A stretch of DNA of 64,000 nucleotides, taken from the NCBI RefSeq assembly GCF_037076355.1, contig NZ_AP026968.1, positions 2,062,501-2,126,500 on the forward strand, in the 5' to 3' direction. Position 1 is the stretch's first letter; every line of letters begins with the position of its first letter. The position numbers were made by a program, and so were the translations under genes. Of this stretch, positions 47,444 through 54,382 are shown one piece after another. This DNA comes from Streptococcus parapneumoniae (GTDB taxonomy: Bacteria > Bacillota > Bacilli > Lactobacillales > Streptococcaceae). The notes under the pieces were generated by a model. That model was given only the letters and a program-made list of their open reading frames with translations, made no database searches and had not been told where the DNA came from.

Positions 47444-47501
47444 GACTCCATTTTATTCTATAGTATCAAAAACAAGACTTGGTTTGGCATTGAAATCCAA
47501 G
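47444..47501 (-). repeat. 58-base copy of the tsaD 3' end (left boundary repeat)
   Basis: This matches 52 of 58 bases with 51893-51950, the last codons and stop of tsaD, in the same orientation. All six differences change G/C to A/T, three of them altering amino acids (reading LDFNAKPSLVFDTIE then stop), so this copy is under no coding selection. It marks one edge of the accessory island. Confidence 0.92.
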
Positions 47502-47559
47502 TCTTGCTCATATTCAGATTCATCCATTATGCGATGCTCATGCCGTATTTTATAATGAA

Positions 47560-47844
47560 TCATATTTTAAAAATACCAGACCACACTACTCCCTGCTTAT
47601 ATTTAGCTTCTTTCTTTTGGACAAATTTTGCCAAATCCAATAACTCTGTCGGTGGTTCACCTTTAAAGCCCAATAATTCTTTAGAGACGGCAAATGAGAG
47701 ACGTACAGCTAGCAAATCTTCACTAGTACTAGAGAACTGTTTTGCTGTTTCCAGCAATTGCTTCCTAAATTCTTCCGTCAAGCTAATTTCTTTATTATTG
47801 TACAGGGAATGAATTAAAATTTGTAACTGACTCTGTTTTTCCAT
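47560..47844 (-). CDS. putative bacteriocin immunity protein
   Basis: A 94-residue, mostly helical protein (MEKQSQLQILIHSLYNNKEI) with the size and helix pattern of enterocin A-type immunity proteins. It has a TGAGGT ribosome site. Upstream is the remnant of another short gene. The immunity assignment is based on resemblance and setting and could be wrong. Confidence 0.5.
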   Translation of the reverse strand: MEKQSQLQILIHSLYNNKEISLTEEFRKQLLETAKQFSSTSEDLLAVRLSFAVSKELLGFKGEPPTELLDLAKFVQKKEAKYKQGVVWSGIFKI

Positions 47845-47857
47845 CGTTTACCTCATT

Positions 47858-48010
47858 TTATCTAGGACGCCAAGGACCATATTTAGCCCAACCATCCACC
47901 ATAACATTTACAGTGTGTTCCAAATTAGAAATATATTGTACAGACTTCCAGTTGCTAGGTGAAATTTCGTTTCTTTCATGGACACCTCTAAAAATTTTTA
48001 GAAGTTCTTT
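47858..48010 (-). pseudogene. short Trp-rich remnant next to the immunity-like gene
   Basis: An open frame of 50 codons with no start codon, ending NVMVDGWAKYGPWRPR and stop, just 13 bases before the immunity-like gene. The lack of any start and the isolated position suggest the 3' end of a lost gene, possibly a secreted peptide. No family was recognised. Confidence 0.4.
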
Positions 48011-48045
48011 TCAAATAATCATGCAACATTCATATAAAATAAATT

Positions 48046-49269
48046 TTAACAATTAGTATCATTCTTTTTGAAAAAATTACAAATAACTAATAAATAAATT
48101 CCTATAGATAGTGTAAATCCATTTATTAAAATACCCAAAATTTTTATATCTGTATAAAATTGAGGAATAATCAAAAATAGAATGGCAAATAAAGCATATA
48201 AACTTGAATTAGTCGAATATATCAATCCCATAGTGTCGTATCTATACTCTGAGTAAATCATTTTTTCAAACATATTTCCTGATATACCTATTAAAATAAA
48301 TGCTAAAAAAAATAACAACAACTTTATTAACGGAAATGGAGTAATAAATACTAGCATGAGTGCTAATCCAGATACAGTATAATCAATAAAGAAAAACATT
48401 TTATACGGAATTCCCACTCTAGGAGCCAAAATTGCTCCTATCAAATCGGCAAATCTTTGAGCTCCTAGTACCAATCCCAAATATTGAATAGGTATGCCTT
48501 CTGATAAAAGATACAGTGGCATTAAAGTTAAAAGTAGATCTGTACCCCCACTTAAAATTGACTCTGTAACTACTATAAAAGAGGCAAATTTTGATTCTCG
48601 AAAAGCAGAAACAGTTTCCAAAAATTGGAAAGAAGAATTACTTTCCAAATCTACCTTTTCAGGTCGAACACTTTTAGTATTGTTTTTGGAACCGGGCAAT
48701 CTGATTTTAATCATAAAATAAATAGCAGCCACAAAAAACGGAATACTTAAATTAAAAACAACAAAATAAGATAGAAGCCCTAATAGTAGAGATGCAGTTA
48801 AATTACTAATAATATCTAACACATTTGATGCCAAGTATTGAACATCTATCGATTTCTTTATTAGCATGTCATCATTATTTAAAGTTTCTGGAACAATTTT
48901 CATCTGCAGTGTATTTAATAAATTAGTTGATAATGCGAACAAAAAATTCAATACATAGATATACACAACACGAAAATGATACCTTAAACACAGAATTGTA
49001 ATCACAATTATAATAAACTGGAGAATCTGGAAAATCACTAGCCAAATTTTATCTCTCTGAATTTTATTTATAAAACTTCCATAAAAAACAGCAAGCAAAT
49101 TTGGGATAAAACCAATTAGAGTAAATAGAGATAACTGTCCTGCCTCAATATGATATACACTTACTAACCCTATCGATAAAGCAATAAAGTAAAAACTATC
49201 TGCAATATTCCTAGACGATCTACCTAATATTAAATTTATAAAATTTTGGCTAAATTTTCTTAATATCAT
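48046..49269 (-). CDS. MFS exporter of the peptide cluster
   Basis: A 407-residue major facilitator with about twelve membrane segments, very AT-rich. The start at MILRKFSQN has a GAGGTT site inside the end of the ThiF-like gene, overlapping it by 20 bases, so the two are translated together; a TTG five codons upstream is less likely. In microcin C clusters, the MFS protein MccC exports the product; the same role is proposed here. Confidence 0.8.
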   Translation of the reverse strand: MILRKFSQNFINLILGRSSRNIADSFYFIALSIGLVSVYHIEAGQLSLFTLIGFIPNLLAVFYGSFINKIQRDKIWLVIFQILQFIIIVITILCLRYHFRVVYIYVLNFLFALSTNLLNTLQMKIVPETLNNDDMLIKKSIDVQYLASNVLDIISNLTASLLLGLLSYFVVFNLSIPFFVAAIYFMIKIRLPGSKNNTKSVRPEKVDLESNSSFQFLETVSAFRESKFASFIVVTESILSGGTDLLLTLMPLYLLSEGIPIQYLGLVLGAQRFADLIGAILAPRVGIPYKMFFFIDYTVSGLALMLVFITPFPLIKLLLFFLAFILIGISGNMFEKMIYSEYRYDTMGLIYSTNSSLYALFAILFLIIPQFYTDIKILGILINGFTLSIGIYLLVICNFFKKNDTNC

Positions 49270-50212
49270 GCTTATAAACCTCAAAATTCATGCAATCGAT
49301 TTGAATATAATCCGTTAAATTCAATAATCCTGTTAAAGTATCTAATACTTTATAAGATATGATTGATGCAGCCATATATGATATTGGAGAAATAACACTA
49401 TACGGTATTCTACTATCCAAAACATGATCATCTGTTATCATAAAGTCCCTATAAAACTCCCTCAATGAAATAGTTTTGCCCGGAATAATATGTAGGTAGT
49501 TTATTACCGTAGATGCATATGAGCCAACAATAATAGGTCTCGTATATTTATGAGCTAAATCATCAAACCAGTAGTCTATCTCTATTCTAGGAGTATCTGC
49601 ACAGCATAAAGCAATGTCAAAATTATAATCTTTAAAAATAGTTTCTAAGTCATTCTGACACTCTAACTTCCTATAAATAGTTGTCACATTTGAATCAGAA
49701 ATCTCTTGAATATGCTGTTTTATTATGTCTATTTTTAGCTTACCAATATCAGATTTCTTAAAGGATGTTTGTCTAGTAAGATTTGACTCTTCCACAATGT
49801 CAAAATCTACTAATATGAAATTACCTATACCTAGACGAGCTAAAATTTCGACTGTTGTTGATCCAATACCCCCTACACCAACAATTAAAACTGTTGAATT
49901 TAATAATCTATCCTGATACTTACTAGGGTCTAAATTTTCTGACAAATCAACCCACTCAAAGAAATTAATATTTCGGGAATATTTGGAATTATCATATTGA
50001 TTACTAGTCACTAATCCCATAGATATCATCGACTCAACAACTTGTTTTTCTCCATTAGACAACAATTTTATATCAATGTCATTATCTAATTTTTTTATTA
50101 AATTGATGTTCTCTTCATTAAAATCAATCTCCCTTACAAGAGAAGCATTACCAAAACCAAATTTTATTTTATCTTTAAATATATACGGTTGAAGAGTTCT
50201 CTTTATTCTCAT
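49250..50212 (-). CDS. E1/ThiF-like adenylating enzyme (MccB-type)
   Basis: A 320-residue protein. Residues 1-100 form an extra N-terminal region, like the peptide-binding clamp of MccB. Then comes the ThiF adenylation core: GVGGIGS (112-118), VDFDIVEESNLTRQ (135-148) with its ATP-binding Asp, Asn and Arg, Lys158/160, and ADTPR (205-209). The CxxC zinc pairs usual in MccB and many E1 enzymes are absent. It likely activates the C terminus of a peptide with ATP; the best candidate substrate is the 16-residue peptide upstream. Ribosome site AGGAGGATCTAA. Confidence 0.82.
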   Translation of the reverse strand: MRIKRTLQPYIFKDKIKFGFGNASLVREIDFNEENINLIKKLDNDIDIKLLSNGEKQVVESMISMGLVTSNQYDNSKYSRNINFFEWVDLSENLDPSKYQDRLLNSTVLIVGVGGIGSTTVEILARLGIGNFILVDFDIVEESNLTRQTSFKKSDIGKLKIDIIKQHIQEISDSNVTTIYRKLECQNDLETIFKDYNFDIALCCADTPRIEIDYWFDDLAHKYTRPIIVGSYASTVINYLHIIPGKTISLREFYRDFMITDDHVLDSRIPYSVISPISYMAASIISYKVLDTLTGLLNLTDYIQIDCMNFEVYKHDIKKI

Positions 50213-50594
50213 TTAGATCCTCCTAATCAAAAACTATTAAAAGATAAACAACAAATAGGAGTTTGGAAAATATTTTCCTAAACTCCAAAATTATAAATAC
50301 GAATACAACTCACTTATAATTTCTATCCATATAATAAATTAAAATACAAAAAACTTATCGACTTCTAAAATTCAGTTAAAATCTTAATAGCATGCAGATA
50401 TTAACTTTTAAACATTATGAATATCATCATTCTTCACAATTATTAAGATTTAAGATTTTTTGTATAATATCCGTTGCATTTGCAGCAAAATATATATTAA
50501 TTAGAATTTTTGTCGTATATGTTTATCTTGATTTCAATCCACTATATCTAATCCAAAGTTTATCTTTTCTATCCTATAGATTGCTATTATTTAA
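50213..50594 (-). other. AT-rich spacer between the precursor and ThiF-like genes
   Basis: 382 bases with no open frame bearing a ribosome site. The only clear structure is the hairpin at 50258-50286. Tiny ATG frames here (such as MDRNYK and MLLRF) have no ribosome site. Confidence 0.6.
50258..50286 (-). terminator. attenuator-like hairpin ahead of the ThiF-like gene
   Basis: Minus strand: GGAGTTTAGGAAAA paired with TTTTCCAAACTCC (one bulged A), followed by TATTTGTTGTTTATCTTTT. The U-rich tail is imperfect, so partial read-through is expected, giving more precursor than enzyme transcript. Confidence 0.6.
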
Positions 50595-50645
50595 CTAACG
50601 GCCACCTAAACGATGCCCTTGAAATGAATATGGTACAGCAGACAT
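50595..50645 (-). CDS. 16-residue candidate precursor peptide
   Basis: MSAVPYSFQGHRLGGR. It has a very strong ribosome site (GGAGGAG, 5 bases before ATG) and is the first gene after the Rgg-side promoter, ahead of the ThiF-like and MFS genes. Short length, lack of a double-glycine leader and placement match microcin C-type precursors, which are usually seven or so residues ending in Asn. Here the last residue is Arg after Gly-Gly. Whether it is modified is unproven. Confidence 0.65.
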   Translation of the reverse strand: MSAVPYSFQGHRLGGR

Positions 50646-50720
50646 TGTTTCTCCTCCAATTATTTTTCTTTGTAAACCACTTATGCGACCTAGGATTTGC
50701 TTCAAGTACTTTACAAGAAC

Positions 50721-50726
50721 ACTATA
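50721..50726 (-). promoter_or_regulatory. -10 of the precursor-ThiF-MFS operon
   Basis: Extended -10 TGT-TATAGT on the minus strand, about 75 bases upstream of the peptide start. No good -35 is visible, as expected for an activator-dependent Rgg promoter. Confidence 0.55.
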
Positions 50727-50739
50727 ACACGAAAATTGG

Positions 50740-50801
50740 CGTATTTGAGAAAATCGCATATTTGATATTTTTTCTTATAGAAATTTCTGATTTGCGATTT
50801 T
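50740..50801. promoter_or_regulatory. candidate Rgg operator between two divergent promoters
   Basis: Perfect 9-base inverted repeat AAAATCGCA (50750-50758) and TGCGATTTT (50793-50801), plus a near-direct repeat CGTATTTGA / GCATATTTGA around 50740-50765. It lies between the leftward peptide promoter and the rightward pheromone promoter, so one bound dimer could act on both. Confidence 0.55.
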
Positions 50802-50824
50802 AGTGGATTTGATTATTTCACTGG

Positions 50825-50830
50825 TATAAT
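50825..50830 (+). promoter_or_regulatory. -10 of the shp gene
   Basis: TATAAT 29 bases before the first shp start codon. No consensus -35, again fitting activation by Rgg. Confidence 0.6.
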
Positions 50831-50858
50831 AAAGTTATTACTAACAAGGAGGGATATA

Positions 50859-50942
50859 ATGATGAAGAAAAGAAAAATCCAACTGATACTCCTGCTTATT
50901 TCGGAGTGGGTTATCGTCTTCCCGTTTCTAATCAATCGATAA
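50859..50942 (+). CDS. shp144: SHP144-type short hydrophobic pheromone precursor
   Basis: A 27-residue peptide with a basic start (MKKRKIQ), hydrophobic core and C-terminal EWVIVFPFLINR. This is very close to the known SHP144 pheromone ending. It has AAGGAGGG and two overlapping start codons (50859, 50862). It is exported, cut, re-imported by Ami and bound by the Rgg partner. It is convergent with rgg, overlapping its 3' end by 11 bases. Confidence 0.85.
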   Translation: MMKKRKIQLILLLISEWVIVFPFLINR

Positions 50943-51795
50943 GTTCTTTGTATTGCTGAAAACGCAATTCGAAGAGGGCTGTTAATTGTGAATTTTCTAA
51001 TACTTGCAGAGATTGGATAAAGTGTTCAATCTCTTTTTGATTACTTCCTTTGGTTTGAAGAAATATACTCATTTTCTTTAAAAATTGCCACGATAATTTC
51101 TCAAAAACATCGTATGGACGGAGCATACTCTCCAGCTCTGCTTCAAAGATTGGGATATAGGAGAAAAGCTTGCGCTCCATGAGCTCTGATAAGATATTTA
51201 ATAGTCCTTGCTTCATATACAATCGATTGTGTACTAACTCTTTAAATTCTTTGGATTTTTCAAGCAAAGAGGTTGATAAAAAAATCAGATCTTGATTGCT
51301 TAGGAAGGGCATGGTATTGCAAAAAAGATAGAGTTCAAACCAGGTCCAAGACTCAATAGCATAGAGATAAGTAGTCAAAAACTCCCTATCCTCCTCTGTT
51401 AGCAGATAGCTCTTATTTAAGGAATGAATAGCATTTTTAATCACAATGGCATTCAAACAACGATAGGTCTCTGCCATCTGTCCTTGCTCGACTTCCTCCA
51501 ACAGTTGCTCTAAGCCAGCTATATCTTGGTGGGCAAAGCGATCCACAACCCTCCTACCAATCTGCATATGTGGAGATTCTTGATAGTTGTTGAGTTTGTG
51601 CCCAAACTCATCAAAATTCATATTGATCCCTTGGATGGCTAGAATCAACTTATCCGCAGATAGCATAGACTGCCCTAGTTCAAACTTGGACAGCTGAGAA
51701 GCTGTTAGTCCAGCACAAGCCACATCTGACTGCTTGAGCTTTCTAGCCAAGCGCAACTCCTTGTAAAATTCTCCCAATTCCATTCTCTCGATCAT
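50932..51795 (-). CDS. rgg144: Rgg-family pheromone-responsive regulator (Rgg144-like)
   Basis: A 287-residue Rgg with an N-terminal helix-turn-helix (QSDVACAGLTASQLSKFELG near 24-43) and a C-terminal repeat domain that binds SHP. The start MIERMEL has AGGAGGTGGTAAG; a longer in-frame start overlaps the promoter. It sits beside shp144 and next to tsaD as in pneumococcus, where it controls the vp1 operon; here the target appears to be the peptide cluster. Confidence 0.87.
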   Translation of the reverse strand: MIERMELGEFYKELRLARKLKQSDVACAGLTASQLSKFELGQSMLSADKLILAIQGINMNFDEFGHKLNNYQESPHMQIGRRVVDRFAHQDIAGLEQLLEEVEQGQMAETYRCLNAIVIKNAIHSLNKSYLLTEEDREFLTTYLYAIESWTWFELYLFCNTMPFLSNQDLIFLSTSLLEKSKEFKELVHNRLYMKQGLLNILSELMERKLFSYIPIFEAELESMLRPYDVFEKLSWQFLKKMSIFLQTKGSNQKEIEHFIQSLQVLENSQLTALFELRFQQYKELID

Positions 51796-51819
51796 CTTAC
51801 CACCTCCTAGCTTTTGCAT

Positions 51820-51849
51820 ATTATATCATTATTTTTATAGTTTTGTCAA
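51820..51849 (-). promoter_or_regulatory. rgg promoter
   Basis: Minus strand: -35 TTGACA (51844-51849), 18-base spacer, -10 TATAAT (51820-51825). Confidence 0.85.
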
Positions 51850-51872
51850 AATATTCTGACACTTTGGTGATT

Positions 51873-51897
51873 GAAAAAGCCAGCCTTAAGCTGACTC
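51873..51897 (-). terminator. terminator after tsaD
   Basis: Minus strand: AGTCAGC paired with GCTGGCT (one G-T pair), loop TTAA, then TTTTTC. It overlaps the right copy of the boundary repeat. Confidence 0.65.
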
Positions 51898-51950
51898 CAT
51901 TTTATTCCATGGTATCAAAAGCGAGACTTGGTTTGGCATTGAGGTCCAAG
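51893..51950 (-). repeat. tsaD 3' end (right boundary repeat)
   Basis: The functional copy of the 58-base repeat, within the last 16 codons and stop of tsaD. See 47444-47501. Confidence 0.92.
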
Positions 51951-52912
51951 CCTGAGAAGTTTTCTTTGTTCCACTCACTGACGCTGGCATAGGCAATCAT
52001 TCCTGCATTGTCTCCGCAGAGGCGCAGAGGTGGGATGATGACATTGACATCTGTGATTTCAGCCGCCAGGCGTTCTCTGAGACCTTTATTGGCTGCCACA
52101 CCACCTGCCACGACAAGGGTTTTAACAGGGTATTTCTCCAAAGCCTTCTTAGTTTTTGCCATAAGAATATCCAAGACAGCTGCTTGGAAGGAAGCACACA
52201 AATCCTCTGTGGACAAGCTCGCTCCCTTTTGCTCGGCATTGTGGTGAAGATTGATAAAGGCAGACTTCAAACCAGAGAATGAAAACTCCAGATTATCTTC
52301 CTTGATCATGGCACGAGGGAAATCATAAATATCCTGTCCCTGATGAGCTAGCTCGTCAATCTCACGACCAGCAGGATAGGTCAAGCCCATGACACGGCCG
52401 ACCTTATCATAGGCCTCGCCAACCGCGTCATCTCGCGTTTCCCCAACAATCTTGTAGTCACCAGCCTCCGAAACATAAACCAACTCTGTGTGTCCACCGC
52501 TAACCAAGAGGGCTAGCAAGGGAAACTCCAAAGGCTCTACATTTTGAGCTGCCATGAGGTGACCAGCCATGTGGTTAACAGGGATAAGTGGAAGTCCATG
52601 TGCCCAAGCAAAGGCCTTAGCAGCTGACAAGCCAACTAGCAAGGCTCCGACCAAGCCTGGTCCATAGGTAACTGCCACAGCTGTCACATCCTCTTCTGTA
52701 ATCTCTGCTTCTGCTAGCGCCTCCTCGATACAGGCTGTAATGACCTCGACATGGTGACGACTGGCTACTTCAGGCACTACGCCCCCAAAACGTTTGTGAC
52801 TCTCAATTTGACTAGCAATGACATTGGACAAGAGCTCATCGTCGTTTTTCAAGACGGCAACACTAGTCTCATCACAGGATGTCTCAAATGCTAAAATATA
52901 TCTATCCTTCAT
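51902..52912 (-). CDS. tsaD: tRNA threonylcarbamoyladenosine transferase TsaD
   Basis: A 336-residue enzyme that adds threonylcarbamoyl to A37 of tRNAs reading ANN codons, together with TsaB and TsaE. Metal-binding His residues HMAGH (near 111-115) and the [11 protein letters not shown] motif (near 133) are present. It overlaps rimI by 11 bases. Its 3' end has been partly copied 4.4 kb away (47444-47501). Confidence 0.97.
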
Positions 52913-54196: not shown

Positions 54197-54382
54197 ATGA
54201 CAAATTTTGACGTTCTTGACAATCAATTTTTATCCTTATCTGAAAATGAATTATCAGATATTGATGGCGGTCTCGCTCCCTTGGTTATCTTTGGAGTAGC
54301 AGTATCTTGGAAAGCTATTGCAGGTGGAACAGCACTTATAGGTTCTGGTTTGGCAGCTGGTTATTTTTTAGGAGGAGATTAA
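54197..54382 (+). CDS. cibA: competence-induced bacteriocin A
   Basis: A 61-residue two-peptide bacteriocin component. The leader ends NELSDIDGG at residues 17-25, the double-glycine signal for export by ComAB. The 36-residue mature part is hydrophobic with a GSGLAAG segment. In pneumococcus CibAB kills non-competent siblings during fratricide. Strong AGGAGG site. Confidence 0.93.
   Translation: MTNFDVLDNQFLSLSENELSDIDGGLAPLVIFGVAVSWKAIAGGTALIGSGLAAGYFLGGD

Follow-up and report, generated by a model that had tools for sequence, protein, structure and literature searches.

A candidate ribosomal-peptide cassette with an MccB-related ThiF-like enzyme beside an Rgg144/SHP144-type pair in Streptococcus parapneumoniae

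A peptide cassette at an Rgg144-type site

We analysed a stretch of 64,000 nucleotides from Streptococcus parapneumoniae (assembly GCF_037076355.1, contig NZ_AP026968.1, positions 2,062,501 to 2,126,500; hereafter the window), the gene content of which supports a ribosomal-peptide cassette made up of a short precursor gene, a gene for a ThiF-like enzyme and a gene for a major facilitator superfamily (MFS)-like protein, located beside a regulator and short hydrophobic peptide (SHP) pheromone pair of the Rgg144/SHP144 type. In the reading that we favour, with a probability of about 70%, the cassette encodes a 16-residue peptide ending in Arg, an MccB-related enzyme that adenylates the C-terminal Arg and a likely exporter, and it forms an alternative cargo of the Rgg144/SHP144-type site that is predicted to be switched on by Rgg. 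The sequence comparisons are best read as pointing to a family of ribosomally synthesized and post-translationally modified peptides (RiPPs) of the ThiF kind that is built like microcin C but distinct from it, and the product is likely a modified peptide that is apparently undescribed.

The cassette measures 2.7 kb and occupies the cargo position of a conserved site with the order tsaD-rgg-shp-[cargo]-azlC (Table 1). The precursor open reading frame (ORF), MSAVPYSFQGHRLGGR, comprises 16 codons, is preceded by AATTGGAGGAGAAACA and lies between the inverted repeat and the enzyme gene. Every gene listed in the initial annotation was found in its place (Rgg, SHP, inverted repeat, 16-codon ORF, ThiF-like enzyme and MFS protein), and the ribosomal-peptide cassette that it proposed beside an Rgg144/SHP144-type pair was borne out by gene content and precursor conservation. 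The single AT-rich island that it described narrows to the cassette alone, as the GC content was 29.1% in thiF, 27.9% in the MFS gene and 22.3% in the precursor-thiF gap, against 39.0% in rgg, which belongs to the host locus, and 41.2% in the whole window. Rfam gave no match.

Conservation of the precursor peptide

Homologues were sought in 284 Streptococcus genomes and in a further draw of 395 genomes of the same order. A ThiF match at E 1e-10 was present in 36 of the 284, and the cassette enzyme family in eight, with six intact copies (the window's genome, two at 100%, one at 95% and two at 76% identity), one truncated copy (79% identity) and one remnant (82%). All six intact loci carried a precursor ORF, which read MSAVPYSFQGHRLGGR at three, MSAVPCSFQGHRLGGR at one and MTVVAVQTFPGHRVGGR at two. 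In the 395-genome draw, MTAEVVNRPGYRIGGR precedes an enzyme of 54% identity. Close enzyme matches, about 46% identical, were also found in three of 32 genomes, inferred to be Lysinibacillus, and there the precursor ORF is MNPHFRNGDR or MLPAFRNGDR. An ORF ending in R-x-G-[GD]-R lies upstream of the enzyme at 10 of the 11 intact family loci, in six distinct versions of 10-17 amino acids (aa) that differ by synonymous as well as amino-acid changes; conservation beside homologues of the enzyme, on which the initial annotation had staked its proposal, was thus confirmed. The precursor at L195 was read by eye from the DNA, having been missed by the scan for Shine-Dalgarno (SD) sites. Asp and Glu are both absent from three of the six distinct sequences (those of the window, L033 and L034), and the C-terminal carboxylate is the sole carboxylate common to all six. 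In a sister group of the enzyme family the precursors end in RSAGGH, NRASDH and NRVGGQ, with His or Gln at the terminus.

Since the relaxed C-terminal motif fits one of 122 other short SD-preceded ATG ORFs in the window (8-25 codons), as against an ORF preceding 10 of 11 homologues, conservation indicates that the short ORF is a real precursor beside the enzyme. As positive controls, MccA (MRTGNAN, on an E. coli plasmid) and IndA (L028-L030) were recovered by the same kind of scan, which recognised no precursor at L009, L011 and L023. That the MSAVPYSFQGHRLGGR ORF arose by chance and the enzyme acts on something else is hardly credible: the window holds 123 short ORFs with SD-like sites, of which one other fits the relaxed motif, and the locus L193 has no such ORF, but position and C-terminal motif stay constant at 10 of 11 loci while ThiF identity falls to about 46%, and the synonymous changes and the hairpin downstream also speak against it.

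Short secretion-type peptides sharing EIDPGPAN were seen upstream of different ThiF genes (L009, L011, L020 and L034), and they appear to be a second, Phr-like signalling type tied to ThiF enzymes.

The enzyme and its predicted chemistry

The nearest solved relative of the enzyme is MccB (E 2.8e-22), with PaaA also matched among RiPP enzymes (E 9.1e-14). Aligned to MccB, the ATP-site residues R147, K160 and D206 do not vary among 21 family members, and their counterparts in EnfB are essential or ATP-binding according to the available text of PMC12250964. Two marks of the TLAT enzymes (ThiF-like adenylyltransferases) were present, namely a ThiF/E1 domain with the ATP-binding Arg, Lys and Asp, and a conserved short precursor adjoining the enzyme. 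The cassette enzyme family formed its own clade in two trees (support 100/100 and 100/98), joined by the sister group with His- or Gln-ended precursors (97/93); IndF and the EnfB-like enzymes of the genus fell in other clades, and GrcB was not among the placed sequences. The motif label requires four changes on the tree when L193 and the rows for which the DNA is not known are scored as lacking the motif. With shallow profiles, the N-terminal domain could be matched to those of the GGH and EGR groups (89% and 95%). Two members of another ThiF clade (L016 and L171) have Arg-ended precursors as well, MSIKKIATPATVVEGR and MKIRKLSNKQVSKTAVEPR, and an N-terminal domain related to that of the cassette enzyme family.

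As the six precursors share no carboxylate other than the C-terminal one, the first step is likely adenylation of the carboxylate of the C-terminal Arg. In MccB the side-chain nitrogen of the terminal Asn attacks the activated carbonyl (PMC12250964, as available); superclade precursors end in Arg, His or Gln and MccA in Asn, residues that all have a side-chain nitrogen. By analogy, capture of the activated carbonyl by the Arg guanidine is the preferred next step and the most likely one. Somewhat short of even odds stands the alternative that the carboxylate is adenylated and then closed into a macrocycle with His, Arg, Ser/Thr, the N-terminus or a backbone amide, which would yield a cyclic RiPP and not a microcin C-like product. 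Dehydrative ring closure is described for PaaA, GrcB, IndF and EnfB (PMC12150305; PMC12250964, both as available), and the precursors offer other conserved nucleophiles, an inner Arg in 6/6 and S/T2 in the four longer ones. Against a macrocycle, the enzyme clusters with neither IndF nor the EnfB-like clade, the precursors are leaderless and as short as 10 aa, and the terminus varies across the superclade only among Arg, His and Gln.

The precursor-enzyme hairpin and the MFS-like protein

A stem-loop was found in all 11 precursor-enzyme gaps tested (eight of the family and three of the sister group; z -2.2 to -7.5), and shuffles as strong as the native hairpin arose in 1/40 for the window and 0/40 for the other gaps. 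The E. coli mccA-mccB gap, taken as a control, gave z -4.0, and the terminator there holds the precursor in excess over the enzymes, as stated in the available text of PMC6495379. Compared with L033, the window keeps 94.1% identity in the hairpin region and 92.4% in the precursor plus SD, while the gap as a whole reaches 74.9%. By analogy, the hairpin before thiF is predicted to attenuate transcription in the window's cassette, although it has an imperfect T run and was not picked up by the terminator scan.

The MFS-like gene then follows the enzyme gene in the window, L031-L034, L060, L183-L185 and L192. Its identity comes from relatives, as a 33%-identical protein passes the MFS_1 cut-off and a 96% relative is named MFS transporter by NCBI; the protein likely exports the product.

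Exchangeable cargo under a predicted shared quorum signal

Among the 284 Streptococcus genomes, 108 had an Rgg match at E 1e-60 or better, 66 of them at 68% identity or more. We examined 64 of these 66 (G115 and G209 were left out), and 63 of the loci lie on the site, with L167 elsewhere. The gene tsaD is upstream in 62 of the 64, and azlC lies within the stretch in 58. By similarity search the cargo was VP1 with CPBP in 25 loci, CPBP only in 21, an immunity-like gene only in five, the ThiF cassette in four (one of these with two VP1 and two CPBP copies), a LanKC-type synthetase in four on the site (split in L112), VP1 with CPBP and an immunity-like gene in two, and a 113-aa protein with an immunity-like gene in two, with the off-site L167 making up the 64. 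VP1 and SHP were detected by short queries or by pattern, which miss divergent ones, and SHP was recognised at 32 of the 64 loci. The VP1 assignment is based on NF033772 (E 9.6e-15, below cut-off), and that of the LanKC cargo on NF038151/NF038150 and RamC_N or LANC_like matches below NCBIfam cut-offs. All four ThiF loci carried a GHRxGGR ORF, which was absent from the remaining 60.

The SHP gene neighbourhood, inverted repeat and promoter region are nearly identical in 17 loci with four kinds of cargo, and in 16 of the 17 aligned rows the predicted -10 is kept as TGTTATA[GC]T or with a neighbouring change. An identical SHP accompanies ThiF cargo in the window, L031 and L032, and VP1 cargo in L111, L121, L122 and L128. 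On the right, similarity to the VP1 loci L111 and L128 ends at 50651, inside the SD of the precursor, and on the left, similarity to the 113-aa-protein loci L115 and L117 resumes at 47953. The comparison shows exchange of cargo at the site, with the cassette as one alternative among several, and in our best reading this is how the cassette came to stand under Rgg144. Pneumococcal Rgg144 activates vp1 next to it, together with genes further downstream (PMC5913232, as available). Because SHP, operator and promoter region are shared and Rgg144 activates vp1 at the equivalent place, Rgg/SHP is predicted by analogy to switch on the cassette. It is very unlikely that the cassette is a passive insertion outside Rgg control; the module does occur without Rgg in S. 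parasanguinis and Lysinibacillus, and Rgg control rests on homology, but the SD of the precursor falls exactly at the place of the VP1 SD, after the SHP, inverted repeat and promoter region that the loci have in common.

Other arrangements at the site came to light in the same comparison. At L112, L113, L145 and L154 the Rgg144-type cargo is a LanKC-like lanthipeptide synthetase with a 30-32 aa Cys-containing peptide; on SHP144 with a lanthipeptide our literature search found one review only. At L033 (8499-10880) the ThiF cassette is followed by VP1, CPBP, a 3' fragment of rgg, a second copy of the SHP/promoter region (84% to window 50651-51147), another VP1 and another CPBP, which suggests tandem build-up of cargo at one Rgg site. 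The 113-aa ORF of L115 and L117 is secreted-looking, ends in WAKYGPWRPR and is accompanied by an EntA-immunity-like gene, and the window keeps only its 3' end. This ORF gave no family match, and there was none behind the label lcn972-like.

The module outside the Rgg site

A cassette without Rgg exists, a point absent from the initial annotation. The three genes recur in S. parasanguinis and a related genome, there placed after an unrelated helix-turn-helix (HTH) regulator and a 44-aa secretion-type peptide, which we take to be of the Tpr and Phr kinds, the regulator having HTH matches only. Among the listed ORFs of the Lysinibacillus genomes (so inferred) and of G975, no Rgg- or Tpr-like gene was seen by eye, without a profile search. 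The distribution indicates that the unit of evolution is the three-gene module and not the Rgg cluster.

A second copy of the tsaD 3' end lies on the far side of the slot in the window, and also in L031 and L142. As L142 has this copy and no cassette, the 61-bp direct repeat was rejected as a transposition footprint. Carriage by phage was likewise dismissed, tblastn against 50,697 phage records having found nothing and two viral-contig scans having given distant partial matches only. Plasmid carriage was rejected as well: 88 plasmid records matched, all below 60% identity, and at 26-35% among the 20 matches listed. Protein cluster P0009 carries a Caudoviricetes name in one source.

Proposed mechanism and significance

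In the mechanism that we propose, SHP, once imported, would make Rgg an activator that works at the inverted repeat and promoter, and the hairpin before thiF would stop part of transcription, leaving a short precursor transcript in excess as for mccA-mccB. The N-terminal domain, a likely RiPP recognition element (RRE), would bind the short peptide, and the enzyme would adenylate the carboxylate of the C-terminal Arg. The activated carbonyl would then pass to a side-chain nitrogen, most likely that of the guanidine of the same Arg (compare Asn in MccB), and the resulting peptide end would be cyclised (-18 Da) or further nucleotidylated. The MFS protein would export the product, probably a growth inhibitor of neighbours.

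Several observations weigh against this account. Being almost identical, the ThiF loci of the window, L031 and L032 amount to a single observation; L035 and L036, both streptococcal, hold decayed copies; and at L193, where the enzyme is 39% identical, no recognisable precursor and no MFS-like gene were seen. The grouping with MccB in the tree is weak (90/90, not starred), and with shallow profiles the N-terminal domain gave no match to the N-termini of MccB, IndF or EnfB-like enzymes. The window's MFS protein had no Pfam or NCBIfam match at E 0.1, only MFS_3 at E 0.15. A promoter scan of the window gave no excess over shuffles (25 vs 25.1 expected) and did not list the cargo promoter, and the hairpin missing from the terminator scan of the window belongs here too.

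Instead of an antibacterial, the product may be a signalling or co-factor-like peptide, such as a second quorum signal, which we hold to be unlikely but deserving of real weight. VP1, whose place the cassette takes, is described as a peptide of signalling and colonisation that the same regulator controls (PMC7595303, as available), and there is no classical immunity gene within its edges; on the other side, other cargoes at the site are lanthipeptide-synthetase-like, and a dedicated exporter without a receptor gene is also the minimal mccABC layout (PMC12250964, as available). An inhibitor stays our preferred reading, and a bolder form of it is distinctly improbable, namely that the cassettes yield microcin-C-like Trojan-horse inhibitors of a new class, the warhead being carried by the C-terminal Arg (by His or Gln in the sister group). 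The terminal side chain, closed by the enzyme onto its own activated carbonyl and with a nucleotide added, would form a stable arginyl-adenylate mimic that poisons arginyl-tRNA synthetase in any cell taking up the peptide, and streptococci would have plugged it, like other weapons, into one exchangeable slot under a shared quorum signal.

The apparently undescribed ThiF-made peptide family spans at least two bacterial families and has a reactive end (Arg, or His/Gln in the sister group) unlike those of the characterised ThiF RiPPs examined, so that the cassette could reveal new chemistry or a new type of antibiotic. The Rgg144 site appears as a cargo slot, with one pheromone, operator and promoter region and with products that differ by species, and the same signal may switch on different products in neighbouring mitis-group species.

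Features of the window

The features at the site are collected in Table 1. Elsewhere in the window (54197-54382, + strand), we observed a 61-aa double-glycine class II bacteriocin-like ORF that matches TIGR03949 (E 4e-9, above cut-off).

Table 1. Coordinates of the cassette and its surroundings in the window
Feature	Position	Strand	Remarks
Precursor peptide ORF MSAVPYSFQGHRLGGR, 16 aa	50595..50645	-	SD GGAGGAG at about 50651-50657; kept beside 10/11 intact close enzyme homologues
Precursor-enzyme hairpin, possible attenuator	50258..50286	-	T run imperfect; not listed by terminator scan
ThiF/E1-like adenylyltransferase, 320 aa	49250..50212	-	PF00899 E 4.6e-37; nearest solved relative by sequence is MccB
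MFS-like transporter, 412 aa, TTG start, predicted exporter	48046..49284	-	Overlaps 3' end of enzyme gene
Extent of exchangeable cassette	47954..50650	.	Ends of nucleotide similarity with other-cargo loci
Rgg regulator, Rgg144 type	50932..51819	-	Rgg_C E 2.2e-41; TIGR01716 E 2e-62
SHP pheromone precursor MMKKRKIQLILLLISEWVIVFPFLINR, C terminus EWVIVFPFLINR	50859..50942	+	
Inverted repeat, predicted Rgg operator	50750..50801	.	Arms 50750-50770 / 50781-50801, 21 nt, 81% complementary
Predicted extended -10 of cargo promoter TGTTATAGT	50721..50729	-	Read by eye; absent from promoter scan list
EntA-immunity-like gene, host locus not cassette	47560..47844	-	PF08951 E 0.005, below cut-off
113-aa protein gene, 3' remnant	47858..47953	-	Gene intact in L115, L117
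tsaD 3'-end copy, host locus	47444..47504	.	89% to 51893-51953

Comparison with known systems

ThiF-like RiPP enzymes are a known kind (PMC12250964; PMC12150305), with IndF and GrcB reported from S. pneumoniae (PMC12150305), and according to PMC12250964 the streptococcal ThiF enzymes were placed in 11 clusters by Wang 2024 (ACS Omega); these sources are cited as far as their text was available. The cassette enzyme may already lie within one of those clusters. We found no paper on HRLGGR, on Arg-ended microcin C or on ThiF RiPPs of Lysinibacillus, and the precursor family and its place in the Rgg144 cargo slot seem undescribed in the literature examined. The initial annotation knew of no described streptococcal Rgg-controlled ThiF cluster; this has to be narrowed, as Rgg loci that hold ThiF genes have been reported from S. 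thermophilus (PMC12445099, as available) and IndF and GrcB are known, and the part that stands is the apparent novelty of the precursor family and its placement in the Rgg144 slot. The S. thermophilus loci are alike in that Rgg there also adjoins a ThiF gene.

With microcin C the cassette shares a short precursor without a cleaved leader, a precursor-enzyme hairpin, a ThiF-like enzyme and an MFS exporter next to it. The microcin C enzyme is of the RRE type, and the N-terminal domain of the cassette enzyme may be an RRE as well. The differences are a precursor of 10-17 aa that ends in Arg and not in Asn as in MccA, the absence of mccD, mccE and mccF inside the cassette, and an enzyme of a separate clade without the CxxC of MccB. 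MccB chemistry requires a C-terminal Asn (PMC6495379, as available), and all six distinct precursors end in Arg, so that membership in the microcin C type was rejected; the AMP adduct that the initial annotation named as an example is one of several possible outcomes.

Pantocin A (PaaP-PaaA) is alike in its ThiF-like enzyme, PaaA being the match noted above. PaaA acts on a Glu pair in the core of a 30-aa precursor (PMC12250964, as available), while half of the cassette precursors lack Asp or Glu. The IndF, EnfB and GrcB systems, from streptococci and enterococci, resemble the cassette in having a ThiF-like enzyme and a short upstream precursor, in being streptococcal and in lying often near quorum-sensing genes. 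Their precursors end in NWYFI, WIVI or Cys (PMC12150305; PMC12250964, as available); in contrast to those of IndF and EnfB, which also belong to other clades, the cassette precursors lack a hydrophobic/Trp core, that of the window ending in GGR without Trp, and the C-terminal Cys that is joined to Glu in GrcB is found in 0/6 cassette precursors.

The setting of the cassette is closest to the Rgg144/SHP144-vp1 locus of S. pneumoniae, with the same regulator type, the same tsaD and azlC neighbours and an SHP that has 9/12 residues of the mature SHP144 form (EWVIVIPFLTNL, tabulated in PMC13361665). The difference lies in the cargo, as the precursor-ThiF-MFS cassette stands in place of vp1/CPBP or, in L033, in tandem with it.

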